Assembly: GCF_028737315.1 (NCBI RefSeq) | Contig: NZ_JAQZAO010000001.1 | Coordinates: forward strand, 124,001-188,000 | Direction: 5' to 3' | Length of the DNA stretch: 64,000 nt | Origin: Actinomycetospora lemnae | Lineage (GTDB): Bacteria > Actinomycetota > Actinomycetes > Mycobacteriales > Pseudonocardiaceae | The notes under the pieces: model-generated | Databases searched by the model: none | What the model saw: the letters and a program-made list of their open reading frames with translations, nothing else | What the model was told of the DNA's origin: nothing | In this document: positions 37,904 through 51,443 of the stretch, piece after piece | How the letters are laid out: each line of letters starts with the position of its first letter | How positions within the stretch are numbered: the first letter of the stretch is position 1 | Translations under genes and position numbers: made by a program

Positions 37904-37909
37904 ACCCTA
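37904..37909 (-). promoter_or_regulatory. -10 box of a leaderless transcript (SDR-like gene)
   Basis: TAGGGT on the minus strand ends 8 nt before the ATG at 37895. It overlaps the stop codon of the upstream WYL regulator gene, so the promoter lies at that gene's 3' end. Confidence 0.5.
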
Positions 37910-38905
37910 ATCTGCGCCCGGCGGTGACGGCAGGGATGATCGTGCCGCTCCCCCGCGGTAGAGAGCCACGACACGTGCCGCCGCCTCCGCCATGTCCGCC
38001 CGCAGGCTCTCCGGCTCGAGCACCTCGACCGCGTCGCCGTAGCCGAGCAGGCCCGCCCGCGCGGCCAGGACCGACCGGAACGGCGCGACGAGGACCTCCC
38101 GGCCGTCGGGGGCGGTGCCCTCCTGCCGCCACGGCCCGGCGAGCACGGCGAGCGCGACGCGGCGCAGGGTCGACGCCCACGCCGGGTCGACGAGCACGCG
38201 GACCTCGACCTCGGCGGTCGGCTCCTGCAGCCGGTCGCGCAGCTCGGCCCACACCTCGGCGAGATCGCGGTCGTCGGGGCGGCGGGCGGGCGTGCCCGTG
38301 CGCGCGACGTCGCGGACCCGGCTGACCCGGTACATCTTCGGACGCCCGCGGTGCGCCGCGACGAGATACCAGGTGCCGGCCTTGCTGACCAGGCCGTACG
38401 GGTCGACCGTGCGCCAGGTGGCCACGGCGGCGTCGCCCGTCGCGTAGTGCAGGCGGACGCGCTCGTCGGCGACCAGCGCGGCGTCGAGGGCGGGCAGGGC
38501 GGGCAGGTCCTCGGGCGCGCGCCGCCAGCCCTGGTGCTCGACGAGCAGGCGGCGCCGGGCCCGGTCGACGCCCTCGCGGCGGGCCGCGGGCAGCGCCGCC
38601 AGCAGCTTGCGCGACGCCGAGGCCAGGGCCGGGCCGAGCGCCCCGTCCGACGACCCGAGCGCGACGAGCGCGCGCAGCTCGTCGTCGGTCATCCCGGTGA
38701 CGTCGGTGCGGTAACCCTCGAGCAGCGCCACCCCGCCCCGCCGCCCGCGCTCGCAGTACACCGGCACGCCCGCCGACGACAGGGCGTCGACGTCGCGGCG
38801 CACGGTGCGCGTCGAGACCTCGAGGCGCCGCGCGATCTCCGGCGCGGGCAGCCGGCCGTGGGTCTGCAGGAGCAGCAACGTCGCGAGCAGACGGTCCGAA
38901 CGCAC
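37907..38905 (-). CDS. HTH-WYL transcriptional regulator
   Basis: A 332-residue DeoR-like regulator: N-terminal winged helix (RLLATLLLLQTHGRLPAPEIARRLEVSTRTVRRDVDALSSAGVPVY) and a WYL domain (YGLVSKAGTWYLVAAHRGRPKMYRVSRVRDV) that senses a ligand, often nucleotide-like. GTG at 38905 matches the usual start of the HTH. It is divergent from the TIGR03086 gene, a frequent pairing in actinomycetes, so it probably controls that gene. Confidence 0.88.
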   Translation of the reverse strand: MRSDRLLATLLLLQTHGRLPAPEIARRLEVSTRTVRRDVDALSSAGVPVYCERGRRGGVALLEGYRTDVTGMTDDELRALVALGSSDGALGPALASASRKLLAALPAARREGVDRARRRLLVEHQGWRRAPEDLPALPALDAALVADERVRLHYATGDAAVATWRTVDPYGLVSKAGTWYLVAAHRGRPKMYRVSRVRDVARTGTPARRPDDRDLAEVWAELRDRLQEPTAEVEVRVLVDPAWASTLRRVALAVLAGPWRQEGTAPDGREVLVAPFRSVLAARAGLLGYGDAVEVLEPESLRADMAEAAARVVALYRGGAARSSLPSPPGAD

Positions 38906-38994
38906 GCCGTCGAGGATGGCAGGAAAACAGGACGCCAGGTGTCCGGTATCGGGGCGCACGATCCTGCGCACACCCCGCACCCAGGAGGCTCCCG

Positions 38995-39621: not shown

Positions 39622-39644
39622 CGTCGCCGACCCCCGCCCGCCGT

Positions 39645-39666
39645 TCCGGACACGTACTATCTGGGG
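39645..39666. promoter_or_regulatory. Nic regulon motif, diverged copy at the nicR promoter
   Basis: CACGTACTATC (39651-39661), flanked by TCCGGA and TGGGG, matches the central 11 bp and part of the flanks of the motif found exactly conserved at 40375-40397 and 51414-51436. TACTAT (39656-39661) could be the nicR -10, so occupancy would block nicR itself (autoregulation). Confidence 0.6.
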
Positions 39667-39745
39667 CGGGAGCGACGGGCGGGGCCCGGGGGACCGTCGA
39701 CCCGCAATCACGTGCCCGGGCCGGCGCCGAGGGCGAGGTGGGCCG

Positions 39746-40288
39746 GTGACGGCGAGGTCGGCATCCGTGGAGAGCGAGCACGACGACGGGCAGGCCGGTC
39801 GCGAGACCCGCGGCGCCGCCCGCCAGCGCGTCAGCCTCGCACCGCCGGCGGATCTCGTCGCCGCGCCGGGCTACGGGGCGCGCCGCCTCTACCAGGCCTA
39901 CCTCGCCGCCTGGAGCCGCCACGTCGACGGCGTGCTGACCGGCCCCCAGTTCGCCGTGCTCTCGGCGATCCGCGCCTACCCGGACGCCGACCAGACCGCG
40001 CTCGCCGGGGCGGTCGCGCTCGACACCTCGACGATGGCCGACGTCTGCCGGCGCATGGAGCGGCGCGGTCTCATCTCGCGGACGGCCTCGCCGCACGACG
40101 CGCGCGCCAAGGTCCTGACGCTCACCGACGAGGGCGACACCGCGCTCGCGGAGACGTTCCGCCGGGCCCGCGCGCTCGACGACGCCCTGCTCGCGGGCTG
40201 CCCGCCGGAGCAGCGTCCGCACCTCGCGTCGCTGTTCAACGACCTCGGTGCGCACTGGGAGCAGGTCGCGGAGCGCGACCAGCTCTGA
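39746..40288 (+). CDS. nicR: MarR-family repressor of nicotinate catabolism (NicR-like)
   Basis: A 180-residue MarR protein. N-terminal disordered tail (1-35), then winged helix: LTGPQFAVLSAIRAYPDADQTALAGAVALDTSTMADVCRRMERRGLISR and the wing SPHDARAKVLTLTDEG. In Pseudomonas putida the MarR-type NicR represses nicotinate genes with 6-hydroxynicotinate as inducer. Position next to nicC and a shared motif in three promoters support the same role. GTG start with GAGGTG upstream. Confidence 0.8.
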   Translation: MTARSASVESEHDDGQAGRETRGAARQRVSLAPPADLVAAPGYGARRLYQAYLAAWSRHVDGVLTGPQFAVLSAIRAYPDADQTALAGAVALDTSTMADVCRRMERRGLISRTASPHDARAKVLTLTDEGDTALAETFRRARALDDALLAGCPPEQRPHLASLFNDLGAHWEQVAERDQL

Positions 40289-40367
40289 CCTCGCCCACGG
40301 GCTCTCCGACGGGATCTCCACCGGTCCGACGATCTGTTACGGCCACATCTCGGGACCCGCCAAGGTA

Positions 40368-40397
40368 TTGCGTCCTCGGATAGTACGTGCTCGGATT
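40368..40397 (+). promoter_or_regulatory. Nic regulon promoter/operator before nicC
   Basis: TTGCGT (40368-40373) as -35, then the conserved motif CTCGGATAGTACGTG + CTCGGATT (40375-40397), which includes TCGGAT at -10 spacing (17 bp). The same 30-bp block recurs, with one mismatch, before nicX. CTCGGA is repeated directly 15 bp apart inside it. Placement between -35 and -10 fits repression. Confidence 0.75.
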
Positions 40398-40440
40398 TAA
40401 CGCAGCCGGACGCGAGCACCACATCGGAGGAACGGCACCA

Positions 40441-41708
40441 TGGCGAGCCAGTCGTTCGAGGTCACCATCGTCGGCGGGGGTCTGGGCGGCCTCTGCGCGG
40501 CGCTCTCGCTGCGCCAGCGCGGCCTGCGGGTCACCGTCGTCGAGGCCGCCCCGGAGCTGGGCGAGATCGGTGCCGGCATCCAGACCGCCCCGAACGCCAG
40601 CCGCATCCTCATCGGCCTGGGGCTGCGCGCGCAGCTCGAGGCGGTGCGCACCCAGCCCGAGGACCAGGTCCGGCGCCGCTGGGCCGACGGCAGCATCATC
40701 GCCCAGCTCCCGCTGGGCCGGCGCGTCATCGACCAGTACGGCGCCCCGTACTGGCACTACCACCGCGCCGACCTGCACCGCGTCCTGCTCGACGCCTGCG
40801 TCGACCCGGACCTCCCCGGCCCGCTGGTCTCGCTGCACACCGGCGCCAAGGTCGCCGAGCTCGACCGGAGCGACCCGCTGCGGCCGGTCGCCGTCGCCGA
40901 GGACGGGCGCCGCTTCGAAGGCGACGTGCTGATCGGCGCCGACGGCATCCGCTCGGCCGTGCGCGACCTCGCGGGCTTCGACGACACGCTCGTCTTCTCC
41001 GGCGAGATGGCCTACCGGGCGCTGATCCCCGGCGAGCTGATCGCCGCGGACCCGGCCACCCGCTTCCTCGTCGACCGCTACCACTCGACGATCTGGTACG
41101 GCCCCGACAAGCACCTCGTGCACTACGTGATCCGCAACGGGCAGTACCTCAACGTCGTCGCGATCGTGCCGTGCTCGGAGGGCATCGAGCGCGACTGGAG
41201 CGGCCCGGCCACCCCCGAGCAGCTCGCGGCCGACTTCGCCGACTGGGACGACCGCGTGCCCGCGATGCTGTCCAAGGCCAAGCCCGAGGACGTCTCGCTC
41301 TGGGCCATGTACCGCCGGCGCCGCGACCCGGTGTGGGTCGACGGCCGGGTCGCCCTGCTCGGCGACGCCTGCCACGCGATGCTGCCCTACCAGGCGCAGG
41401 GCGCCTCGCAGTCGATGGAGGACGCCGCGGTGCTCGCCGAGGAGCTGGGCCGGGTCACCCGCGACGACATCGACGGCGCCCTCGTGCGCTACGTCGACCG
41501 CCGGGCCAAGCACGCGGGCATGGTGCAGGACGCCTCGCTGCAGAACATGTCCTTCTACCACCTGCCCGACGGCCCCGAGCAGCGTGAGCGCGACGAGAAG
41601 CTGGCCCGCTTCGACGGCGAGTCGGACGTCTCCTACGACTGGCTCTGGAACGGCAGCCCGCTCCACGACCACGACACCGAGTCCATCCACTACCAGTTCG
41701 CCCGCTGA
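40441..41708 (+). CDS. nicC: FAD monooxygenase, 6-hydroxynicotinate 3-monooxygenase-like
   Basis: A 422-residue class A flavoprotein hydroxylase: GGGLGG (12-17) in the FAD Rossmann fold, EIGAGIQTAPNASRILIGLGL, a DG motif (DVLIGADGIRSAVRDLAG) and GD motif (LLGDACHAMLPYQAQGASQSMEDA). Related salicylate-type enzymes exist, but the surrounding dioxygenase, deformylase, amidase and isomerase point to NicC, decarboxylative hydroxylation of 6-hydroxynicotinate to 2,5-dihydroxypyridine. GGAGGA precedes ATG. First gene after the conserved operator. Confidence 0.82.
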
Positions 41709-41755
41709 CGCGCGGACCGAGCGACCCCACCCCTTCCGCGACGGGAGCGAACCGC

Positions 41756-43168
41756 ATGCGCACCGGAGACCAGATCGTCCAGGACCTGCCCTGGCGCTGG
41801 GGCGTCCAAGGCAAGATCTTCCTCATCGGCGGCCTCGGCTACATGTTCGACGCCTGGGACGTCGCCCTCAACGGCTTCCTCACCCCGCTGGTCGGCACCG
41901 AGTTCGGGCTGACGCCGGGACAGAAGGGCCTGGTCGCGACGGCCAACCTCATCGGCATGGCGGTCGGCGCCGTGGCCTGGGGCACCGTGGCCGACCGCAT
42001 CGGGCGCAAGAAGGCCTTCAGCATCACCCTGCTGATCTTCGCGCTGTTCTCGGTGCTCGGCGCGCTGTCGCCGAACATCGAGATGTTCCTGCTGCTGCGC
42101 TTCCTCGCCGGCGTCGGCCTCGGCGGCTGCATCCCGGTCGACTACGCGATCGTCAGCGAGTTCTCGCCGAAGAAGCAGCGCGGCCGGGTGCTCGCCGCGA
42201 TGGACGGGTGGTGGCCGATCGGCGCCACGCTCGCCGGCGTGTCCGCGACGCTGCTCGTCCCGGTCACGGGCAACTGGCGCTGGATGCTCGTGCTCATGAT
42301 CCTGCCGGCCCTGCTGCTGTTCTGGGTGCGCCGCGGGGTGCCCGAGTCGCCGCTCTACCTCTCCCGTATGGGCCGTGAGGCCGAGGCCCGCGCCGTCATC
42401 GACGACATGGTGACCCGCACCGGCGCCACCGCCGAGCCCTACGCCATCCCCGAGCCCGTCGCCGAGGACAAGAGGGGCGGCGCCTGGGCCGCGGCCGTCG
42501 ACCAGCTGCGTCGCGTCTGGGCGTTCAACCCGCGCATCACCGCCGTCGCGTGGTCGCTGTTCATCGCCGTCATGCTCGTCTACTACGCCGCCCTGAGCTG
42601 GATGCCCTCGATCCTGCGCGCCGAGGGCTTCGGCGAGATCGCCGCGTTCGCCTCGACGACCCTGATGAACGCGCTCGGCATCGTCGGTGTCGCGCTCTCG
42701 GTGCTGGTCGTCGACCGCTGGGGCCGCAAGAAGGTCATCGCGCTGGCCGGCCCGATCGCGGCCGCCACGCTCGTCGCCTTCTCGCTGCTGCTCGGCACCC
42801 CGACCCTCGCGGTGATCGCCATCGGCGCGTTCGGGCTGTTCGCGCTGGTGGTCATCCCGGTCATGTACGCCTACGTCTCCGAGCTCTATCCCACCGAGCT
42901 GCGCGCCTCGGGCTTCGGCTGGGCGTCGTCGTCGAGCCGCGCGATCACCGGGTTCGCCCCGCTGCTGTTCGGCAGCGTGCTCTGGCCCGTGCTCGGCCTG
43001 CCGCTGACGTTCACCCTGCTCGGGGTGCTCGTCCTCGCCGCGGTGGTGTTCATGTGGGTCGGCGCGCCGGAGACCGCGGGTCGCGAGCTCGACCGGATCA
43101 CCACCGACGTGCCGGACGCCCCGCTCGACGCCAGCACCCCGACCGACACCGAGCGCACCCGCGCCTGA
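41756..43168 (+). CDS. MFS transporter, aromatic-acid/nicotinate uptake candidate
   Basis: A 470-residue major-facilitator protein with 12 predicted helices. The signature loop GTVADRIGRKKA (about 76-87) follows helix 2, LLRFLAGVGLGGCIPVDYAIVSEF follows helix 4, and VDRWGRKKVIALAG is the second-half loop. It resembles the AAHS/sugar-porter branches that take up aromatic acids. It is 47 bp after nicC, so nicotinate or 6-hydroxynicotinate uptake is the likely job (inference). Confidence 0.85.
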   Translation: MRTGDQIVQDLPWRWGVQGKIFLIGGLGYMFDAWDVALNGFLTPLVGTEFGLTPGQKGLVATANLIGMAVGAVAWGTVADRIGRKKAFSITLLIFALFSVLGALSPNIEMFLLLRFLAGVGLGGCIPVDYAIVSEFSPKKQRGRVLAAMDGWWPIGATLAGVSATLLVPVTGNWRWMLVLMILPALLLFWVRRGVPESPLYLSRMGREAEARAVIDDMVTRTGATAEPYAIPEPVAEDKRGGAWAAAVDQLRRVWAFNPRITAVAWSLFIAVMLVYYAALSWMPSILRAEGFGEIAAFASTTLMNALGIVGVALSVLVVDRWGRKKVIALAGPIAAATLVAFSLLLGTPTLAVIAIGAFGLFALVVIPVMYAYVSELYPTELRASGFGWASSSSRAITGFAPLLFGSVLWPVLGLPLTFTLLGVLVLAAVVFMWVGAPETAGRELDRITTDVPDAPLDASTPTDTERTRA

Positions 43169-43187
43169 CCCGCTCCCCCGACCCGAG

Positions 43188-43232
43188 CGAAGGGCACCCT
43201 CGGTCGGTCTACCCGACCGGGGGCGCCCTTCG
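43188..43232 (+). terminator. Terminator between transporter and dehydrogenase genes
   Basis: A 20-bp stem (CGAAGGGCACCCTCGGTCGG pairing with two imperfect positions) and a 5-nt loop starts 20 bp after the transporter stop. It resembles the hairpin at 49465-49509. Partial read-through would set lower dehydrogenase expression unless a separate promoter exists. Confidence 0.75.
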
Positions 43233-43280
43233 CCGGATCCCGGACCGGAGCCCGCCCGAGTCCCGAGGAGGCCCGCGGCC

Positions 43281-44171
43281 GTGAAGCCCGCCGCGTTCAC
43301 CTACCACCGCGCGCACGACGTCGCGGACGCCGTCGGTCTGCTCACCGACCTGGCCGCGGCGGGCGAGGACCCCAAGATCATCGCCGGCGGGCAGAGCCTC
43401 ATGCCGATGATGACCTTCCGCCTCTCGCGGCCGTCGGCGCTGGTCGACCTCGGCCCGCTGCGGCGGGTGCCGTCGATGACGGCGATCGACCACGACGGGC
43501 ACACGCTGGCCCTCGGCGCCCTCGTCACCCACCGCGCCGTCGAGACCGCGAAGCTGCCCGAGGGCTTCGCGGTCCTCGCCCGCGCCATGCGCTGGGTCGG
43601 GCACCTGCCCATCCGCAGCCGCGGCACCGTCGCCGGGAGCCTCGTGCACGGCGACGCCACCGCCGAGTGGTGCCTGCTCGCGCTGCTGCTCGACGCCGTC
43701 GTCGTCGCCGAGGGCCCCGGCGGGCGCCGTGAGATCCCCGCCGACCAGCTCTTCCACGGCTTCTACGCCACCGCGGTCGATCCCGACGAGGTCGTCGTCG
43801 AGGTCCGCTTCACCCGGCCCGCCCCGCACGCGGCGCTGACGGAGTTCGCCCGCCGCCACGGCGACTTCGCGATCGTCGACGCCGCGGTCGCCCTGGACCT
43901 CGACGGCAGCGACGTCACCGGCGGGCGCGTCGTGCTCGGTGGCGTGGCGCCCGCCCCGATCCGGGTGCCGGAGGCCGAGGCGGTGCTCGCCGCCGGTGGC
44001 GACGCCCGGGACGACGCGCTGGTCGGCGCCGTCGCCGACGCGGCCGCCGCGGCGATCGACCCGCCCGACGATCCGCAGACCACCGCCACCTACCGCCGCC
44101 GGCTCACCCGCACCCTCGTGGCGGACGCGTGCCGGCAGGCGGCCGGGACCCTGCAGGAGCCGCAGCCGTGA
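43281..44171 (+). CDS. Molybdenum hydroxylase FAD-binding medium subunit (CoxM type)
   Basis: A 296-residue FAD subunit of a xanthine-oxidase-family hydroxylase. The two FAD-binding motifs are IIAGGQSLMPMMTFRL (about 34-49) and RSRGTVAGSLVHGDATAEW (about 113-131), with the C-terminal CO-dehydrogenase flavoprotein domain after about 185. With the next two genes it forms a three-subunit enzyme. Within this cluster the substrate is most likely nicotinate (6-hydroxylation). GAGGAGG upstream of GTG; stop overlaps the large-subunit start by GTGA. Confidence 0.87.
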   Translation: MKPAAFTYHRAHDVADAVGLLTDLAAAGEDPKIIAGGQSLMPMMTFRLSRPSALVDLGPLRRVPSMTAIDHDGHTLALGALVTHRAVETAKLPEGFAVLARAMRWVGHLPIRSRGTVAGSLVHGDATAEWCLLALLLDAVVVAEGPGGRREIPADQLFHGFYATAVDPDEVVVEVRFTRPAPHAALTEFARRHGDFAIVDAAVALDLDGSDVTGGRVVLGGVAPAPIRVPEAEAVLAAGGDARDDALVGAVADAAAAAIDPPDDPQTTATYRRRLTRTLVADACRQAAGTLQEPQP

Positions 44172-46708
44172 CGGACCTGACCACCACCGACCGGCCCGAC
44201 CAGACCGCGCCGCACGAGGCCGCCGACCCCGACCGGCCCGTCCACCCCCTGTCCGCCGGTCACGAGCACCGTCCCGACGAGCCGCGCTTCGACGGCCGCC
44301 GGGGCCGCTGGGTGGGCGCGTCGGTGCCCCGGCGCGAGGACCCGCGCCTGCTCACCGGCCGCGGCCGGTTCGTCGACGACATCGCGCTGCCCGGGATGCT
44401 GCACGCGGGCTTCGTGCGCGCGACCGTCGCGCACGCCCACGTCACCGACGTCGACCTGAGCGCGACCCGCGAGGTGCCCGGTGTCGTCGCCGCCTTCGAC
44501 GGCGCCGATCTCGCGCTCGGCGACATCGTCGCGATCCTCGACCGCCCGCCCGAGGAGTTCACGCCGACCGCGATGCCGGTGCTCGCGAAGGGCAAGGTCC
44601 GGTTCGTCGGCGAGCCGATCGCCCTGGTCGTCGCGTCCGACCCGTACGCGGTGGAGGACGGCATCGAGGCCGCGCGGGTGTCCTACGACGTGCTCGACGC
44701 CGTCGTCTCGTCCGCGTCGGCGCTGGCCCCGGGCGCGGCGGTGGTGCACGAGGAGGCCCCGGACAACGTCCTGCTCGACGTGTCGATGTTCGACACCCCC
44801 GGCGTGGACGAGGCGTTCGCGGAGGCTGCGGGAGACGACGCGGAGCGGAGCTCGACCCGTCGAGGCTGTGTCGTCGAGGTCACGACGCGCAGCGGCCGGC
44901 AGAACGCCCTGCCGCTCGAGACCCGCGGCGCGGTGGCGTCGTGGGACGCGCGCGACGACCAGCTGCTCGTGCAGACGTGCACCCAGGTCCCCCACCAGGT
45001 CCGCACGGTGCTGGCCCGCTCGCTCGGGATCCCCGAGCGCACCGTGCGCGTGACCGTCCCGGACATGGGCGGCGGCTTCGGGCAGAAGTGCGTCGTCGGC
45101 CGCGAGGAGATCGCGGTGGCCGCGGCGGCGCGGCGTCTCGACCGTCCCGTCAAGTGGATCGAGGACCGGCGCGAGGCCCTGACCGCGGGCTTCCTGGCCC
45201 GCGAGCAGGAGTACCGCACGCGTGCGGCGTTCGACGCCGACGGGCACATCACCGCGCTCGACGTCGACGTCGTCTGCGACATGGGCGCCTACTCCTGCTA
45301 CCCCTTCACCGCCGGCATCGAGCCGCTCATGGCCTCCGCGGAGATGCCCAGCGTGTACCGGGTGCCCGCCTACCGGGTGCGCGGCCGCGCGATCACCAGC
45401 ACCAAGGCCCCGACCGCGCCCTACCGCGGGGTGAGCCGCCCGCAGTACGTGATGGCGATCGAGCGCGTCATGGAGAAGGCGGCGCGGGCGCTCGGCATGG
45501 ACCCGGTCGAGGTGCGGCGGCGCAACGTCATCACCGCGTTCCCGTACACCGGGATCAACGGCGTCACCTACGACCCCGGCACCTACCGCGAGTCGCTCGA
45601 CCTCGCCGAGGCGACGATCCGCGAGGAGGGCTGGTTCGAGGCGCGGGAGCGGGGTGACCGGCACCTGGGCATCGGCTTCTGCTGCTTCTCCGAGCGCACC
45701 GGCTACGGGTCGGAGGCGTTCGCCAAGCGGAAGATGACCGTCGTCCCCGGGTTCGACATCTCCGAGATCCGCATGGACACCACCGGCTCGGTGGTGGTCA
45801 CCAGCGGCACGATGAACCACGGGCAGTCGCACGAGACGACGTTCGCGCAGATCGTCGCCGACCGGCTCGGCCTCGACCCCGAGCAGGTCAAGCTGCGCCA
45901 GGGCGACACCGAGCGCATCTCCTACGGGTGGGGCACGTTCGCGTCGCGGTCGGTGACGATCGGCGGCTCGGCGGTCGCGCTGGCCTCCGAGCGGCTCGGC
46001 GAGCTGCTCTGCCGCATCGCCGCGCACCTGCTCGAGACCCGCCCGGAGAACGTCGCGCTCGACGGCGACGGCGGGGTGGTGCAGCTCGACGACCCGTCGC
46101 GGACGCGCAGCGGAGCGGAGCCGGACCCGTCACCCAAACGGCTGTCGTTCGCCGACATCGCCGACGTCGCCCACCTGCGTGCCCACCTCCTGCCCAAGGA
46201 CGTCGACCCGACGCTGACGGCCACCGCGAGCTTCGACGTCCCCGGCGACGGCACGTTCTCGAACGCCACGCACGCCGCCGTCGTCGAGGCCGACCCGGGC
46301 ACGGGGCAGGTGCGCATCCTGCGCTACGTGTGCGTCGAGGACTGCGGGGTCGTCATCCACCCGCAGGTCGTCGACGGGCAGTGCCGCGGCGGGATCGCCC
46401 AGGGCATCGCGGGCGCGCTGTTCGAGGAGGTCACGTACGACGACCAGGGCGAGCCGTCGGCCGCGTCGTTCATCGACTACCTCGTCCCCACCGCCACCGA
46501 GATCCCCGACGTCTCGATCGCGCACCTGGAGACGCCGTGCGCGTTCACCGCCAATGGCGCGAAGGGCGCGGGCGAGGGCGGCACGATCGGCGCGCCGGCG
46601 GCCGTGCTGAACGCCGTCAACGACGCCCTGCGCCACACCGGCGTCGAGCTCGACACCACCCCGATCCACCCCGGGACGGTCCTGGACGCGCTGGAGGGCA
46701 CCTCGTGA
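44168..46708 (+). CDS. Molybdenum hydroxylase large catalytic subunit (nicotinate dehydrogenase candidate)
   Basis: An 846-residue molybdopterin-cytosine-dinucleotide subunit. It has an N-terminal acidic extension (1-45), RREDPRLLTGRGRFVDD, MoCo-contact GGGFGQK, and KGAGEGGTIGAPAAVLNAVNDAL with the catalytic Glu near the C-terminus. The active-site loop reads PYRGVSRPQY instead of the AYRCSFR of true CO dehydrogenases, so it is not CoxL. Two short segments (AGDDAERSSTRRGC, encoded near 44830-44868, and RTRSGAEPDPS near 46103-46131) interrupt otherwise conserved sequence and coincide with copies of a DNA repeat. Product: nicotinate to 6-hydroxynicotinate (inference from cluster). Confidence 0.83.
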   Translation: MTDLTTTDRPDQTAPHEAADPDRPVHPLSAGHEHRPDEPRFDGRRGRWVGASVPRREDPRLLTGRGRFVDDIALPGMLHAGFVRATVAHAHVTDVDLSATREVPGVVAAFDGADLALGDIVAILDRPPEEFTPTAMPVLAKGKVRFVGEPIALVVASDPYAVEDGIEAARVSYDVLDAVVSSASALAPGAAVVHEEAPDNVLLDVSMFDTPGVDEAFAEAAGDDAERSSTRRGCVVEVTTRSGRQNALPLETRGAVASWDARDDQLLVQTCTQVPHQVRTVLARSLGIPERTVRVTVPDMGGGFGQKCVVGREEIAVAAAARRLDRPVKWIEDRREALTAGFLAREQEYRTRAAFDADGHITALDVDVVCDMGAYSCYPFTAGIEPLMASAEMPSVYRVPAYRVRGRAITSTKAPTAPYRGVSRPQYVMAIERVMEKAARALGMDPVEVRRRNVITAFPYTGINGVTYDPGTYRESLDLAEATIREEGWFEARERGDRHLGIGFCCFSERTGYGSEAFAKRKMTVVPGFDISEIRMDTTGSVVVTSGTMNHGQSHETTFAQIVADRLGLDPEQVKLRQGDTERISYGWGTFASRSVTIGGSAVALASERLGELLCRIAAHLLETRPENVALDGDGGVVQLDDPSRTRSGAEPDPSPKRLSFADIADVAHLRAHLLPKDVDPTLTATASFDVPGDGTFSNATHAAVVEADPGTGQVRILRYVCVEDCGVVIHPQVVDGQCRGGIAQGIAGALFEEVTYDDQGEPSAASFIDYLVPTATEIPDVSIAHLETPCAFTANGAKGAGEGGTIGAPAAVLNAVNDALRHTGVELDTTPIHPGTVLDALEGTS
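44830..44868 (+). repeat. Nic-cluster short repeat, copy 1 (inside large subunit gene)
   Basis: Core GAGACGACGCGGAGCG + GAGCTCGACC. It is in frame within the dehydrogenase gene, replacing a short linker by about 14 codons. Related copies lie at 46103-46131, 47174-47210 and 50320-50357. Confidence 0.7.
46103..46131 (+). repeat. Nic-cluster short repeat, diverged copy 2
   Basis: GACGCGCAGCGGAGCGGAG followed by CCGGACCCGTC, a diverged but recognisable copy, in frame in the large subunit gene. Confidence 0.5.
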
Positions 46709-47226
46709 ACGACCCGCACCTGCTGTCGCTGACGGTCAACGGCGCCGAGCACGAGGTGGTCGTCGAACCGCGGCGCACGCTCGCCGACGTCCTGCGCCAC
46801 GACCTGCGCCTCACCGGCACCCACGTCGGGTGCGAGCACGGGGTGTGCGGGGCGTGCACCGTGCTGGTCGACGGCGCCCCGACGCGCGCGTGCCTGGTGT
46901 TCGCGGTGCAGGCCGAGGGCGCCGACGTACGCACGGTGGAGTCGCTCGCCCGGGACGGGGAGCTCTCCGACCTGCAGCGGGCGTTCGGCGACCACCACGC
47001 CCTGCAGTGCGGCTTCTGCACGCCCGGCTTCCTCATGCTCGCCGAGGGCGTGCTGGCCGAGCAGCCCGACGCTTCGCGCGAGGACATCCGCGAGGCGCTC
47101 TCGGCGAACCTGTGCCGCTGCACGGGCTACCAGACCATCGTCGACGCGGTGCACGCGACGGCCTGCTCACGACGGGAGACGGAGCGCAGCGGAGCTCGAC
47201 CCGTGGACTGGGAGAGCTGCTCGTGA
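46705..47226 (+). CDS. Molybdenum hydroxylase iron-sulfur small subunit (CoxS type)
   Basis: A 173-residue protein with two [2Fe-2S] sites: plant-ferredoxin cluster Cys43, Cys48, Cys51, Cys63 (GCEHGVCGAC) and the helical-domain cluster Cys102, Cys105, Cys137, Cys139 (QCGFCTPG, CRCTGY). It passes electrons from the Mo site to FAD. The last 20 residues (SRRETERSGARPVDWESCS) are unusual and are encoded by a repeat copy, so the original C-terminus has been replaced. Coupled at both ends by GTGA overlaps. Confidence 0.93.
   Translation: MNDPHLLSLTVNGAEHEVVVEPRRTLADVLRHDLRLTGTHVGCEHGVCGACTVLVDGAPTRACLVFAVQAEGADVRTVESLARDGELSDLQRAFGDHHALQCGFCTPGFLMLAEGVLAEQPDASREDIREALSANLCRCTGYQTIVDAVHATACSRRETERSGARPVDWESCS
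47174..47210 (+). repeat. Nic-cluster short repeat, copy 3 (3' end of small subunit gene)
   Basis: GAGACGGAGCGCAGCG + GAGCTCGACC, in frame at the end of the iron-sulfur subunit gene. Confidence 0.7.
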
Positions 47227-47948
47227 TCCTGGACAACCACCTCGACGTGCCGGCCGCGCCGGACGCGGTGTTCGCGCTGCTCAACGACGTCGAGCGGGTC
47301 GCCGGCTGCCTGCCGGGCGCGACGCTCGAGGGCCGCGACGGCGAGGCGTACCGGGGCCGGGTGAAGGTCAAGGTCGGGCCGATCAGCGCCGCGTACGCGG
47401 GCACGCTGCGGTTCACCGAGGTCGTGCCCGAGCAGCGCACGCTGCGCCTGTCGGCCCGGGCGTCGGACGCCCACGGCGCGGGCGACGCGGAGGCCGACGT
47501 CGTGCTGTCGGTGGCCGAGGCCGACGGCGGCTCGACCCTCGACCTGCACACCGACCTGCTCATCCGGGGCAAGATCGCGCAGTTCGGCAAGGGCGCCATC
47601 ACGACGGTCTCCAGCCGCCTGCTCGACCAGTTCGCCCGCAACCTCGCCGGCGAGCTCTCCTCCGACGCCGCGCCGGCACCCGGGGATGCCAGCCTGGCGT
47701 CCACGCTGGCATCAGACGCCAGGAAATCCCCCACCTCGACCACCTCGGCCACCTCGACCACCTCGGCCGCGCCCTCTACCCCCGCCGGCGGCGAGGCCCT
47801 CGACGGCCTGGCGATGTTCCTGCCCCCCAACGCCGGCCGCTGGGCCGCGCTGGCGGGCGTCGCGGCCGTCGGCGTGTTCCAGGGCTACCTGCTCGGGCGG
47901 CTGCGCGGGCAGAAGGACCTCATCCGGGAGCTGCGCCGTGGCCGCTGA
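47223..47948 (+). CDS. CoxG/SRPBCC-fold protein with C-terminal membrane anchor
   Basis: A 241-residue protein: SRPBCC domain (about 1-145; PAAPDAVFALLNDVERVAGCLPGATL, VKVKVGPISAAYAGTLRF), Ser/Thr/Ala-rich linker (about 148-190) and a C-terminal hydrophobic helix (about 206-223) with basic end. CoxG-like proteins help maturation or membrane recruitment of Cox-type molybdenum hydroxylases. The linker is partly made of palindromic repeat copy B (residues about 156-171, LASTLASDARKSPT). GTGA overlap with the previous gene. Confidence 0.85.
   Translation: MILDNHLDVPAAPDAVFALLNDVERVAGCLPGATLEGRDGEAYRGRVKVKVGPISAAYAGTLRFTEVVPEQRTLRLSARASDAHGAGDAEADVVLSVAEADGGSTLDLHTDLLIRGKIAQFGKGAITTVSSRLLDQFARNLAGELSSDAAPAPGDASLASTLASDARKSPTSTTSATSTTSAAPSTPAGGEALDGLAMFLPPNAGRWAALAGVAAVGVFQGYLLGRLRGQKDLIRELRRGR
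47687..47738 (+). repeat. Interspersed palindromic repeat, copy B
   Basis: CCTGGCGTC (47693-47701) and GACGCCAGG (47715-47723) form a 9-bp stem; an alternative stem GCCAGC/GCTGGC is also possible. It lies in frame in the linker of the CoxG-like gene. The following AAATCCCCCACCTCG is identical to copy A. Confidence 0.8.
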
Positions 47949-48597
47949 GCACACGCCCGTCGACGCCGTCTACGCCCGCGCCGGCTTCGGCGCCGCCGTG
48001 CCCCGCGGGTCGCGCCCGGCGCTGGTCGTCGTCGACCTCACCCGCGGCTTCACCGAGGCCGCCTTCCCCTCGGGCTCGGACCTGACCGCCGAGGTCGCCG
48101 CCACGAACCGCCTCGTCGACGCCGCCCGCCGCGGCGGCGCGCCGGTCGTCTGGACCGTCATCAGCTACACCCCCGCCGAGGCCGACGGCGACGCGATCGC
48201 CTGGCTGCGCAAGGCCCCCGGCATGCGCGCGCTGCGCGAGGGCAGCGAGGCCGTGGCGATCGACCCGCGCCTCGACCACCGCGGCGACGACCCGTTGATC
48301 GTCAAGAAGGGCGCCTCGGCGTTCCACGGCTCGGGGCTGGCGTCCCTCCTCACCGGCCTGCACGTCGACACGGCCGTGGTCTGCGGCGCCACCACCTCGG
48401 GCTGCGTGCGGGCGACCGCGGTGGACGCCGTCCAGTCCGGCTTCGACACCCTCGTCGTCGCCGACGCCTGCGGCGACCGTGCGCGGGCCCCGCACGACGC
48501 GGCACTGTTCGACCTGCAGGCCAAGTACGCCGACGTCGTCACGCTCGACGACGCCGTGTCCTACCTCGACGACCCCTTCCGGAAGGCCGACACGTGA
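47938..48597 (+). CDS. nicF: Isochorismatase-fold amidohydrolase, maleamate amidase (NicF-like)
   Basis: A 219-residue cysteine hydrolase with the triad Asp33 (VVVDLTRGF), a lysine at 123/124 (IVKKGASAF) and nucleophile Cys156 (GATTSGCVRAT), as in N-carbamoylsarcosine amidase and maleamate amidohydrolase. In the nic pathway it converts maleamate to maleate plus ammonia. GTG at 47938 overlaps the CoxG-like gene by 11 bp; the stop overlaps the next start by GTGA. Confidence 0.83.
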   Translation: MAAEHTPVDAVYARAGFGAAVPRGSRPALVVVDLTRGFTEAAFPSGSDLTAEVAATNRLVDAARRGGAPVVWTVISYTPAEADGDAIAWLRKAPGMRALREGSEAVAIDPRLDHRGDDPLIVKKGASAFHGSGLASLLTGLHVDTAVVCGATTSGCVRATAVDAVQSGFDTLVVADACGDRARAPHDAALFDLQAKYADVVTLDDAVSYLDDPFRKADT

Positions 48598-49463
48598 CAC
48601 AGCCCGAGCCCGCGGACCGCCGCGTCCTGTCCCAGCCGGCGCTCGCCGACCTCGGCGAGGTCCCGGCCGACAGCCGCTGGGTGCGCTCGCGCGGCCCGCT
48701 GCTGCACCTGCTCGACTACGGCCCCGAGGGGCGCCCGCCGCTCGTCGTCGTCCCGGGCATCACGAGCCCCGCGATCAGCATGGACTTCGTCGTGCGCGGG
48801 CTCACCGACCTCGTGCGCCCGGTCGTCCTCGACGTCCGCGGTCGCGGCCTGTCCGACAACGGCCCCGACCCCACGGCCTACGACCTCGACACCTACGCCC
48901 GCGACGTCGAGGCCGTCGTGCGCGGGCTGCGCCTCGAGCGCCCGATCCTGCTCGGCCACTCGATGGGCGCGCGCATCGTCGCGGCCACCGCCGCGGCCGG
49001 CCGGGTCGGGTCGCGCGGCTCCGTCCTCGTCGACCCGCCCATGAGCGGACCGGGTCGCGGGCCCTACCCGACCACGCTGGAGGCGTTCCTCGGCCAGCTC
49101 GACCAGGCCCGCCGGGGGACGACCGCCGACGAGGTCGCGCAGTCGTGGCCCCGCTGGCCCCGCCGCGAGCAGGAGCTGCGCGCCCGCTGGATGGGCTCGA
49201 TCTCGCGCGACGCGATCGTCGCCACGCACGCGGGCTTCGAGTCCGAGGACTTCTTCGCCATCTGGCCCTCGGTGCCCGCCCCGACCGTGCTCATCCACGG
49301 CGGCGACAGCCCGGTGGTCACCGCCGCCGGCGCGGAGGAGGCCGCGAAGGCCAACCCGGAGGCGGCGATCGTCGAGGTCCCGGGCACCGGCCACATGGTC
49401 TTCTGGGACGACCCCGCCGCGGCGCTCGAGGCCACGCGCCAGGCCCTGCGCGCCCTGATCTGA
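48594..49463 (+). CDS. nicD: Alpha/beta hydrolase, N-formylmaleamate deformylase (NicD-like)
   Basis: A 289-residue alpha/beta hydrolase: nucleophile elbow GHSMGA (Ser123), catalytic His267 in GTGHMVFWD, oxyanion-region VVPGITSPA. In the nic pathway NicD removes formate from N-formylmaleamate, the product of NicX ring cleavage. Generic fold, so the assignment relies on the cluster. Last gene of the plus-strand operon. Confidence 0.78.
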   Translation: MTQPEPADRRVLSQPALADLGEVPADSRWVRSRGPLLHLLDYGPEGRPPLVVVPGITSPAISMDFVVRGLTDLVRPVVLDVRGRGLSDNGPDPTAYDLDTYARDVEAVVRGLRLERPILLGHSMGARIVAATAAAGRVGSRGSVLVDPPMSGPGRGPYPTTLEAFLGQLDQARRGTTADEVAQSWPRWPRREQELRARWMGSISRDAIVATHAGFESEDFFAIWPSVPAPTVLIHGGDSPVVTAAGAEEAAKANPEAAIVEVPGTGHMVFWDDPAAALEATRQALRALI

Positions 49464-49464
49464 G

Positions 49465-49509
49465 CGAAGGGCACCTTCGCTCGACTAGATCGAGCGAAGG
49501 TGCCCTTCG
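49465..49509. terminator. Bidirectional terminator between nicD and nicE
   Basis: Perfect 20-bp arms CGAAGGGCACCTTCGCTCGA and complement with a 5-nt loop CTAGA lie 2 bp after nicD and 33 bp before the nicE stop on the other strand. Confidence 0.9.
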
Positions 49510-49542
49510 GTCACGAACACACACGCACAACAGGCGCCGGCG

Positions 49543-50364
49543 TCACGCCGCCCGCGTCACGTCCCCCGGGTCGGTGACCGAACCGCTCAGCAGCGCGCCC
49601 GCGTCGGGGACGCGCGTCTCGAGGCCCAGCTCGGACAGGATGCGGAAGGTCGTCGCGGTGGCCGCGGACAGCACCGGCAGGCCCACCTCGTCCTGCACCG
49701 CCTCGATCACCGGCAGCGAGGGCATCTGCACGCACGCCGAGAGCACGAGGGCGTCGGCGCCCGTCACGTCCACCTTCTTGTAGTGCTCCCGCAGGTCCTG
49801 CGGGTCGAGCCGGGCGACGGCCAGGTTGTCGGGCACCTGCAGCGACAGGGAGTCGACGACCTCGACGCCCGCGTCCTCCAGGTAGGCCACGACCGCCTGC
49901 GTCAGCGGCTCCATGTACGGCGTCACGATGGCCACCCGCTTCGCCCCGAGGGCCGCGATGCCCGACAGCAGGGCACCCGCGCTCGAGACGACCGGGGCCG
50001 AAGAACCCTCGGCGCGCAGCGCGGCGGTGATGTCGTCCTCGGCGGTGCAGTGGAAGCCCGGGCCCTGGGCCATGATCGCCACGAGGCACGCGGTGGCGAC
50101 GACGTCCGGGCGGGCGTCGGCGAGCTCGGTGGCCGCGCGGGCCGCCTGCTCGTTCATGGCCTTGAGCTGCTCGGGCGTCACGTGCTGCATGCGCGCCCGG
50201 GCGGCGTGGAAGACGAACCGGTCGTCGGGCAGCACCCGCTCCCGCGCGGCGAGCATGCGCGGGAGCTCGGTCTCCATCGTCAGGTTCGAGCTCGGGACGA
50301 TCATCCCGATGTGGTGGTCGCGAGACGAAGCGGAGCGGAGCTCGACTTCTGCTGGGTCGGTCAC
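49543..50364 (-). CDS. nicE: Maleate cis-trans isomerase (NicE-like; Asp/Glu racemase fold)
   Basis: A 273-residue protein of the maleate isomerase/arylmalonate decarboxylase group. Two catalytic cysteines are placed as expected: Cys93 (VATACLVAIM) and Cys211 (LVLSACVQMPS). The N-terminal GMIVPSSNLTMETELP matches the substrate-binding loop. It converts maleate to fumarate, which enters the TCA cycle. The first residues (DPAEVELRSASSRD) are encoded by a repeat copy. GTG at 50364 overlaps the nicX stop by GTGA. Confidence 0.85.
   Translation of the reverse strand: MTDPAEVELRSASSRDHHIGMIVPSSNLTMETELPRMLAARERVLPDDRFVFHAARARMQHVTPEQLKAMNEQAARAATELADARPDVVATACLVAIMAQGPGFHCTAEDDITAALRAEGSSAPVVSSAGALLSGIAALGAKRVAIVTPYMEPLTQAVVAYLEDAGVEVVDSLSLQVPDNLAVARLDPQDLREHYKKVDVTGADALVLSACVQMPSLPVIEAVQDEVGLPVLSAATATTFRILSELGLETRVPDAGALLSGSVTDPGDVTRAA
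50320..50357 (-). repeat. Nic-cluster short repeat, copy 4 (5' end of nicE)
   Basis: Plus-strand GAGACGAAGCGGAGCG + GAGCTCGACT, covering the first codons of nicE in antisense orientation relative to the other copies' genes. Confidence 0.7.
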
Positions 50365-51392
50365 CGCGTCGCCACCGGCTTCATCTCGGGGATGGTCAGT
50401 TCACCCTGGTCGACGACGAGCTCGTCGTCCAGGTAGAGCGAGTTGCCGCGCATCGGGATGTCGAAGTGGCACGGGGTGTCGTTCGGGCCGCCGAGCTCGT
50501 TGTTCGGACCGATCGAGAACATGACGTTGCCGTAGAAGCTGCGCAGCTCCATGCCCATGCCGCCGGGGAACTGGGTCAGGCCGTGCCAGTGGGCGCGCTC
50601 GTCGAGGCCCCAGCCGACGTGGGACATGCCGTAGCCGCGGGGGTCGTCGAAGCTCTTGATGTAGCTCGACAGGAGCTCCGCGTCGAGGCCACCACGGATG
50701 TCGCGGATGAAGCCCTGCTCGATCTGGAGCGTCACCGGCGTCTGCACGTAGGTGTTGAACGGCAGCAGCACGTCGCCCGGCGAGAGCACGATCTGCCCGT
50801 CGACGCCGTCGTCGGCGCCGCCGGTGAACACGAACGCGGCGGGCCAGTGGTCCCAGCGCCCGGGGGTGTCGGTGTAGCCGTACTCGCTCATCGTCGGGTA
50901 GACGCCGAGGCGGTAGGTGACGTCGGTGCCCGCGGGGCTGGTGATGCGCATCGTCTGCGCCTTGGCGAGCAGGTCGGCGCCGTACTCGACGCGCTCGCGC
51001 AGCTCCGTGGTGGGCATGAGGCGGGCGAGCAGCTCGGGCGGCTCGACGGCGGTGAGGATGCGGGTGCCGGCGTCCTGGATCGCGAACTGCTCCGGTGAGA
51101 ACAGCAGGAACGTGCAGTCGACGAGCATGTCGACCGACTTGAGCGCCTCGACGGCCAGCGGGATGTTCCCGAGGCCGGAGTCGCCCACGGCCCACGCGCC
51201 CGACGCGCTGGCGGGCGGGGGCAGGCGCAGGTGGAAGGTCGCCGCCCCGAGCTGCTGCGCCGCCCAGAGGAACGCGTCGGCGTACTCCCCGCGCTCGGCG
51301 CCGCGGGTCAGCACGGCGACCGTCTCGCCCTCGTGCACGCCGGAGAGCCGCAGCTGCTGCAGGCAGATGTCGTTGAACAGGTTCTGGTCCAT
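50361..51392 (-). CDS. nicX: 2,5-dihydroxypyridine 5,6-dioxygenase (NicX-like)
   Basis: A 343-residue protein matching the length of NicX (about 350). Candidate Fe(II) ligands His258 (GMSHVGWG), His309 and Asp311 (PCHFDIP) keep the spacing of the ligands reported for the P. putida enzyme. It opens the pyridine ring to N-formylmaleamate. ATG at 51392 is preceded by GGAGGT and follows the conserved operator, so it starts the minus-strand nicX-nicE operon. Distantly related to M29 aminopeptidases, which is how automated annotation might label it. Confidence 0.83.
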   Translation of the reverse strand: MDQNLFNDICLQQLRLSGVHEGETVAVLTRGAERGEYADAFLWAAQQLGAATFHLRLPPPASASGAWAVGDSGLGNIPLAVEALKSVDMLVDCTFLLFSPEQFAIQDAGTRILTAVEPPELLARLMPTTELRERVEYGADLLAKAQTMRITSPAGTDVTYRLGVYPTMSEYGYTDTPGRWDHWPAAFVFTGGADDGVDGQIVLSPGDVLLPFNTYVQTPVTLQIEQGFIRDIRGGLDAELLSSYIKSFDDPRGYGMSHVGWGLDERAHWHGLTQFPGGMGMELRSFYGNVMFSIGPNNELGGPNDTPCHFDIPMRGNSLYLDDELVVDQGELTIPEMKPVATR

Positions 51393-51413
51393 CGGTCGAC
51401 CACCTCCGGCTTC

Positions 51414-51443
51414 AATCCGAGCACGTACTATCCGAGCACGCAA
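51414..51443 (-). promoter_or_regulatory. Nic regulon promoter/operator before nicX
   Basis: On the minus strand TTGCGT (51443-51438), one base, then CTCGGATAGTACGTG + CTCGGATT (51436-51414). The 23-bp part is identical to that before nicC. It ends 21 bp from the nicX ATG. Confidence 0.75.

Follow-up and report, generated by a model that had tools for sequence, protein, structure and literature searches.

MarR-type repressors of nicotinate genes are described, in the accessible parts of PMC6837509 and PMC10269826, from Bordetella, where BpsR controls nicC and nicE, and from Pseudomonas putida, where NicR controls nicC and nicX and where, according to the latter source, nicAB is under a second repressor, NicS. 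In the available text of PMC6837509, the exact sequence that BpsR recognises in DNA is described as unclear, so that its operator is not comparable with the one described here. We analyzed a 64,000-nucleotide stretch of the Actinomycetospora lemnae genome (contig NZ_JAQZAO010000001.1, positions 124,001 to 188,000), referred to below as the window, in which a short sequence recurs upstream of a nicC-like monooxygenase gene, of nicX, and of a gene for a MarR-family repressor that we name NicR from its context beside the nic genes. Comparative sequence analysis identifies this repeated sequence, with high confidence, as the NicR operator, a reading carried by the sequence itself, its conservation, its genome-wide specificity, its co-occurrence with NicR, its tracking of operon rearrangements, and promoter elements specific to site classes.

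The NicR protein (gene at 39746..40288, + strand) scores above the Pfam MarR cut-off (PF01047), showing a winged helix-turn-helix MarR domain; it also has matches in the PDB, and in a structure search its model matches PcaV, DNA-bound CouR and BpsR. The best sequence match is PcaV, the protocatechuate-responsive MarR repressor of Streptomyces coelicolor, which also leads the structure matches, level with CouR to within 1 Z. Both PcaV and, as predicted here, NicR repress catabolic genes, but the target of PcaV is an aromatic-acid catabolic gene of a different pathway. The palindromic PcaV probe, as it appears in the accessible part of PMC6882365, can be read as two 8-bp half-sites around 4 bp, the same layout as that of the predicted NicR operator. 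R46 and W56 of NicR correspond in the alignment to the PcaV ligand residues R15 and W25, whereas the pocket histidines H9, H12 and H21 are not kept (A40, Y43 and Y52 in NicR). CouR, a MarR regulator of p-hydroxycinnamate catabolism, differs in its coenzyme A thioester ligand and in its ATTGA/TCAAT boxes, which are separated by a 5-bp spacer and lie over the -35 element.

A sequence repeated upstream of three nic genes

A 23-bp sequence, CTCGGATAGTACGTGCTCGGATT, is identical at 40375-40397 (+ strand), before nicC, and at 51414-51436 (- strand), before nicX. With up to 3 mismatches allowed, the window has no other copy, and none was found in 100 dinucleotide shuffles. The preliminary description had reported this identity and its extension to 30 bp with one mismatch, TTGCGT included; window scan and alignment bear out both, and the match between the two copies continues over 33 nt at 94% (two mismatches, 40368-40400 versus 51411-51443). 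The diverged third copy, which it had placed over the -10 of nicR, was likewise recovered, as an exact 11-bp match (CACGTACTATC, 39651-39661, + strand) lying upstream of the MarR gene. The 11-bp core GATAGTACGTG has exactly three exact matches in the 6,064,868-base genome, the nicC, nicX and nicR sites, and the reversed-pattern control has none; scattering of the motif away from nic genes, named earlier as the observation that would count against a shared operator, was found neither in this genome nor in those of relatives. Other exact repeats of at least 20 bp in the window make up 66 rows, and among the 30 displayed nearly all are tandem.

Comparison of the unique sites, 62 from promoters and 40 of the nicR class, showed that the strongest columns common to the two classes are AT..TACGT...CGGA. 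The better model of the site is likely an imperfect inverted repeat centered in TGYT. A column scan gave +10.5, which falls between TG and YT, as the best dyad centre for each of three site sets, namely the L114-L158 promoters (52 sites, from Pseudonocardiaceae and one Actinomadura), the nicR sites (40) and the Streptomyces-type promoters (29); these sets are related to each other, and the common dyad offers modest support, not proof. The arms of the Yinghuangia site, GAGATAGTACG and CGGATTATCTC, match at 9/11 pairs, and the corresponding counts are 10/11 for L128 and 6/11 for L114. The window sites were found by sequence scans and, before nicC and nicX, are conserved in relatives. On this model, the operator before nicC reads GATAGTACG-TGCT-CGGATTTAA (40379..40400, + strand, dyad centre between 40389 and 40390), the one before nicX reads GATAGTACG-TGCT-CGGATTGAA (51411..51432, - strand, centre between 51421 and 51422), and the operator-like site upstream of nicR reads GATAGTACG-TGTC-CGGAACGGC (39640..39661, - strand, centre between 39650 and 39651).

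The earlier view of a motif built on a direct repeat, not on a palindrome, is not supported, the same dyad centre scoring best in all three sets. CTCGGA does occur twice at the nicC site, with starts 15 bp apart (40375 and 40390), but the repeat is not conserved, its left copy being present in 15 of the 62 unique promoter sites, and the direct-repeat model was rejected. A wider inverted repeat of Pseudonocardiaceae sites, ATCCG...CGGAT, was also dropped: the column scan ranked +10.5 first, ahead of +3.0 and then +6.0, and the dyad at +10.5 is extended by the Streptomyces sites.

Distribution of the site and of NicR

NicR relatives were detected at E 1e-20 or better in 39 of 200 family genomes, 25 of which encode a close one (E 4.6e-59 or better, 64-99% identity). 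The exact sequence GATARTACGTGYTCGGAT is present in all 25 family genomes with a close NicR and in none of the 175 others. When a class-wide set of 394 genomes was searched with a longer pattern, allowing up to 2 mismatches, only the window genome and G489 matched, and in G489 the site sits between divergent nicR-like and nicX genes; the control matched in two genomes. The 35 Streptomyces and Yinghuangia NicR loci (34 of which led to 33 searchable genomes) gave 32 matches in 30 of the 33 genomes, all in nic promoter regions, with no control match. Thirty of these 32 lie upstream of a same-strand nic gene, and the other two diverge from such a match, 178-198 bp off. These two are second, divergently oriented operators at Streptomyces nic promoters (L203:1501-1699 and L207:1501-1719).

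At the level of individual loci, a promoter-class site was found in 41 of the 45 loci L114-L158, the other four having no nic enzyme gene in the DNA examined, and a nicR-class site in 42 of the 45. The script detected a promoter-class site in 9 of the 35 loci L159-L193, many of which end just before the operon start (the L176 site is too near the edge for the script); the search of the 33 genomes resolved these. The nearest named relatives are from Actinomycetospora. A NicR paralogue in the window genome (G000:C9:76270) is 55% identical, and no other nic gene was matched around it within the 20 kb fetched. Genomes with nicX and no NicR, used as a negative control, decide little: in G149, nicX directly follows another gene, and in G037, a fragmented assembly of 730 contigs, no recognisable site was found in the 260 bp upstream of nicX.

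Ten regions of 17-20 kb were examined, one of them around the paralogue, and in the nine nic regions the number and place of the sites follow operon rearrangement. Where nicC and nicX head separate runs (L107, L108, L109 and L113), there is a site before each; where nicX-nicE-nicC form a single run (L111 and L112), the site precedes nicX alone; and where nicC has its own leader (L106), a nicC site is added. L110 has tandem sites before nicX, and L105 combines a variant regulator with a variant site. In an Amycolatopsis group, nicX is preceded by promoter-operators in tandem, spaced by about 40-75 bp (L110:5637-5729 and L143:9778-9835). NicR has the layout of a nicotinate repressor, its gene lying beside the nicC and nicX genes, with a common site at their promoters.

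In a literature search that covered few subscription papers, neither the exact 11-mer nor a title dealing with a nicotinate MarR operator from actinobacteria was found.

Promoter elements, alternative explanations and proposed mechanism

The nicC and nicX sites share a conserved predicted promoter, TTGCGT, 17 bp, TCGGAT, with the -35 at 40368..40373 (+ strand) for nicC and at 51438..51443 (- strand) for nicX, and the -10 at 40391..40396 (+ strand), overlapping the right half-site, and at 51415..51420 (- strand), respectively. This supports the earlier placement of both operators between -35 and -10. The elements are class-specific: TTG at positions -11 to -9 is present in 47/52 promoter sites and 2/40 nicR sites, T12 in 51/52 and 11/40, and T17 in 50/52 and 12/40, in counts where classes follow the number of mismatches if nicR and nicX diverge, a rule that can err (L158 9872, 10 bp from nicR, was put in the promoter class). 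Nine matches without nic context did not enter these counts, nor did two overlapping matches out of register (L142 9801, and one in L118 at 3 mismatches), which were removed beforehand. Site collection relied on mismatch counts against a pattern, and this favours conserved columns. The co-directional nicR/nicC subset, with classes assigned by place, avoids the error of the class rule. There, TTG, T12 and T17 are each present in 20/20 promoter sites, compared with 1/24, 10/24 and 5/24 nicR sites, whereas CGGA is kept in 20/20 and 24/24; the rows are related, and the Fisher values for this subset ignore kinship. Because CGGA is kept while TTG, T12 and T17 differ between classes, the promoter constraint is separable from the operator constraint.

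On the nicR strand, TANNRT occurs in all 40 unique nicR sites, matching the predicted nicR -10 TACTAT (39656..39661, + strand) inside the operator core. A looser test is also passed by 43/52 promoter sites, so part of the TANNRT signal is operator constraint. The position of the operator core over the nicR -10 is well supported by these comparisons, and a -10 within the site implies that nicR would be autorepressed.

It is very unlikely that the shared block is instead a promoter motif for a particular sigma factor, with NicR acting elsewhere or not at all. The conserved TTGCGT-17 bp-TCGGAT arrangement at nicC and nicX, no textbook vegetative promoter, would suit such a motif, but the nicR-site copies keep AT..TACGT...CGGA mostly without the -35 and the two -10 thymines, conservation peaks in the spacer, and site presence matches NicR (25/25 versus 0/175 genomes). 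Slightly less credible still is an operator of another transcription factor, such as the regulator at 37907-38980, read as WYL-type from its sequence, which lies one gene away from nicR in the window. A close homologue (>80% identity) occurs in 9 of the 80 NicR loci, all in Actinomycetospora, and 34-40% identical ones in 6 Streptomyces loci, but other genera have the operator at loci without the WYL-type gene, and the regulator that matches site presence is NicR. Least probable is that a promoter segment was recently duplicated or copied by gene conversion, with no need of a shared regulator. The near-identity over 33 bp and the duplicated segments of the Amycolatopsis group would allow this, but the block is kept separately at nicC and nicX in several genera, with differing flanks.

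Several observations weigh against identification of the repeat as the NicR operator. The arms of the window nicC site pair at 6/11 positions (counted on the letters), and the dyad score was reached by 100, 44 and 299 of 3000 column shuffles for the L114-L158 promoter, nicR and Streptomyces-type sets, and, in a separate shuffle test, by 58 and 68 of 2000. A looser 17-bp pattern at up to 3 mismatches has 18 matches in the window genome, compared with 5 for the reversed control; its full matches are the three nic sites only, and one further site lies within 1 mismatch. This operator-like site (G000:C27:87241-87259; L097, L230) is about 240 bp before sucC, but sucC as a fourth target was treated as chance, a match before it having been confirmed, among 18 genus genomes, in this genome and G189 alone. 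Another 18 family genomes match at 2 mismatches, compared with 4 with a reversed-control match; four of the 18 (G004, G067, G095 and G133) are nic loci with a variant regulator. The site was not found in 3 of the 33 Streptomyces and Yinghuangia genomes, where two loci showed the regulator only and, in the third, the first nic gene lies right at the edge of the locus, and no nicR-class site was found among the 35 Streptomyces-type loci. The -10 consensus is TANNNT, and TCGGAT of nicC and nicX lacks its A. Finally, in the alignment with BpsR, two of the three 6-hydroxynicotinate contacts are replaced (H23 by Y43 and H32 by Y52), R26 is kept as R46, and Y15 falls just outside the aligned block. 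Given these replacements, 6-hydroxynicotinate and nicotinate are both candidate inducers, and NicR is not filed as a BpsR-type 6-hydroxynicotinate sensor, although it may work like one.

On balance, the preliminary proposal of one operator shared by three promoters and cognate to the adjacent MarR protein is supported, and the repeated sequence very probably serves as the NicR operator through occlusion by a NicR dimer, autorepression and release by a ligand. We infer the following mechanism. The NicR dimer would bind the imperfect inverted repeat, composed of the half-site GATARTMCG, the 4-bp centre TGYT and the half-site CGGATTATC. At nicC and nicX, the operator would fill the spacer between the -35 TTGCGT and the -10 TCGGAT and overlap the -10, so that bound NicR would exclude RNA polymerase, and at nicR the same core over its own -10 would result in autorepression. 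A pathway compound, 6-hydroxynicotinate or nicotinate, would release the dimer, and the nicC run, nicX-nicE and nicR would be induced together. The predicted circuit is ordinary MarR repressor control, defined with good comparative precision.

Regulator variants and the nic gene cluster

In four lineages (G004, g34, G489 and g86), the regulators at nic loci carry LDRSTMA in place of LDTSTMA, that is, R at recognition-helix position 94 where NicR has T; by locus, these are L249, L105 with L031/L032, L235, and L236-L238. At operator position 6, the sites of these regulators have C; in g86, where the pattern script found no site, the assignment was made by eye. T94 regulators have A6 in 43/52 of the L114-L158 promoter sites and in 29/29 Streptomyces-type sites, together 72/81 unique promoter sites, in a sample where T94 is over-sampled, the 80 named loci having been found with the peptides QAYLAAW[NS] and ALDTSTMA; the recognition-helix string was matched in 79 of the 80. 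The link is not strict, since nine T94 sites have C6, and a tree parts the R94 from the T94 rows weakly (65/72). PcaV also combines R at position 94 with C6, and its probe half-sites, in the accessible part of PMC6882365, are TCAG, compared with TACG/TCCG for NicR. We treat the link between positions 94 and 6 as a lead. It is possible, albeit doubtful, that a single recognition-helix residue tunes the operator family; with A6, the operator core becomes a TANNRT -10 on the opposite strand, and the T94/A6 change may thereby have given rise, within the operator, to the autorepressed nicR promoter.

The R94-type regulators are 49-58% identical to NicR, and their variant sites (L249:1003-1020, L105:5189-5206, L235:2333-2352 and intergenic stretches of L236-L238) are partly more symmetric, with 8/9 pairs in L235. 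A 2-mismatch operator-like site, L250:3514-3531, lies at a divergent promoter of apparent aldehyde-dehydrogenase and monooxygenase genes, about 2.3 kb from a 43% NicR-like gene, and possibly marks a sister regulon.

The nicR gene has two possible GTG starts (39746 and 39767). Since the alignment with relatives begins at about residue 15-30, the true start may lie downstream of the annotated one, with GTG 39767 as the alternative. The nicC operon is headed by the nicC-like flavin adenine dinucleotide (FAD) monooxygenase gene (40440..41708, + strand). The product matches 6-hydroxynicotinate 3-monooxygenase at 5.5e-49 and decarboxylating vanillate 1-hydroxylase better, at 4.2e-77, and because of this better match both the nicC name and the nicotinate substrate rest on context. 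The rest of the run (41756..49463, + strand) encodes an MFS transporter, a three-subunit molybdenum hydroxylase, a CoxG-like protein, an isochorismatase-fold protein (nicF-like) and an alpha/beta hydrolase (nicD-like); the molybdenum hydroxylase, with its CoxG-like partner (43281-47948), is the putative nicotinate dehydrogenase. On the opposite strand lie the nicE-like gene, of the arylmalonate decarboxylase/Asp-Glu racemase family (49543..50364), and nicX (50361..51392), encoding a 2,5-dihydroxypyridine 5,6-dioxygenase homologue (7cn3, E 6.3e-92). Taken together, the cluster is probably nicotinate-catabolic, and its putative dehydrogenase genes follow nicC, in contrast to nicAB of P. putida under NicS.

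The analysis supplies a precise candidate operator for a probable actinobacterial nicotinate-catabolic regulon that comprises three promoters and includes the putative dehydrogenase genes in the nicC run, and provides a natural series of regulator/operator pairs for the study of MarR specificity. With 6-hydroxynicotinate as the inducer, the enzyme producing this compound would be under its own control, a positive feedback unlike the two-repressor arrangement of P. putida as outlined in the accessible part of PMC10269826.

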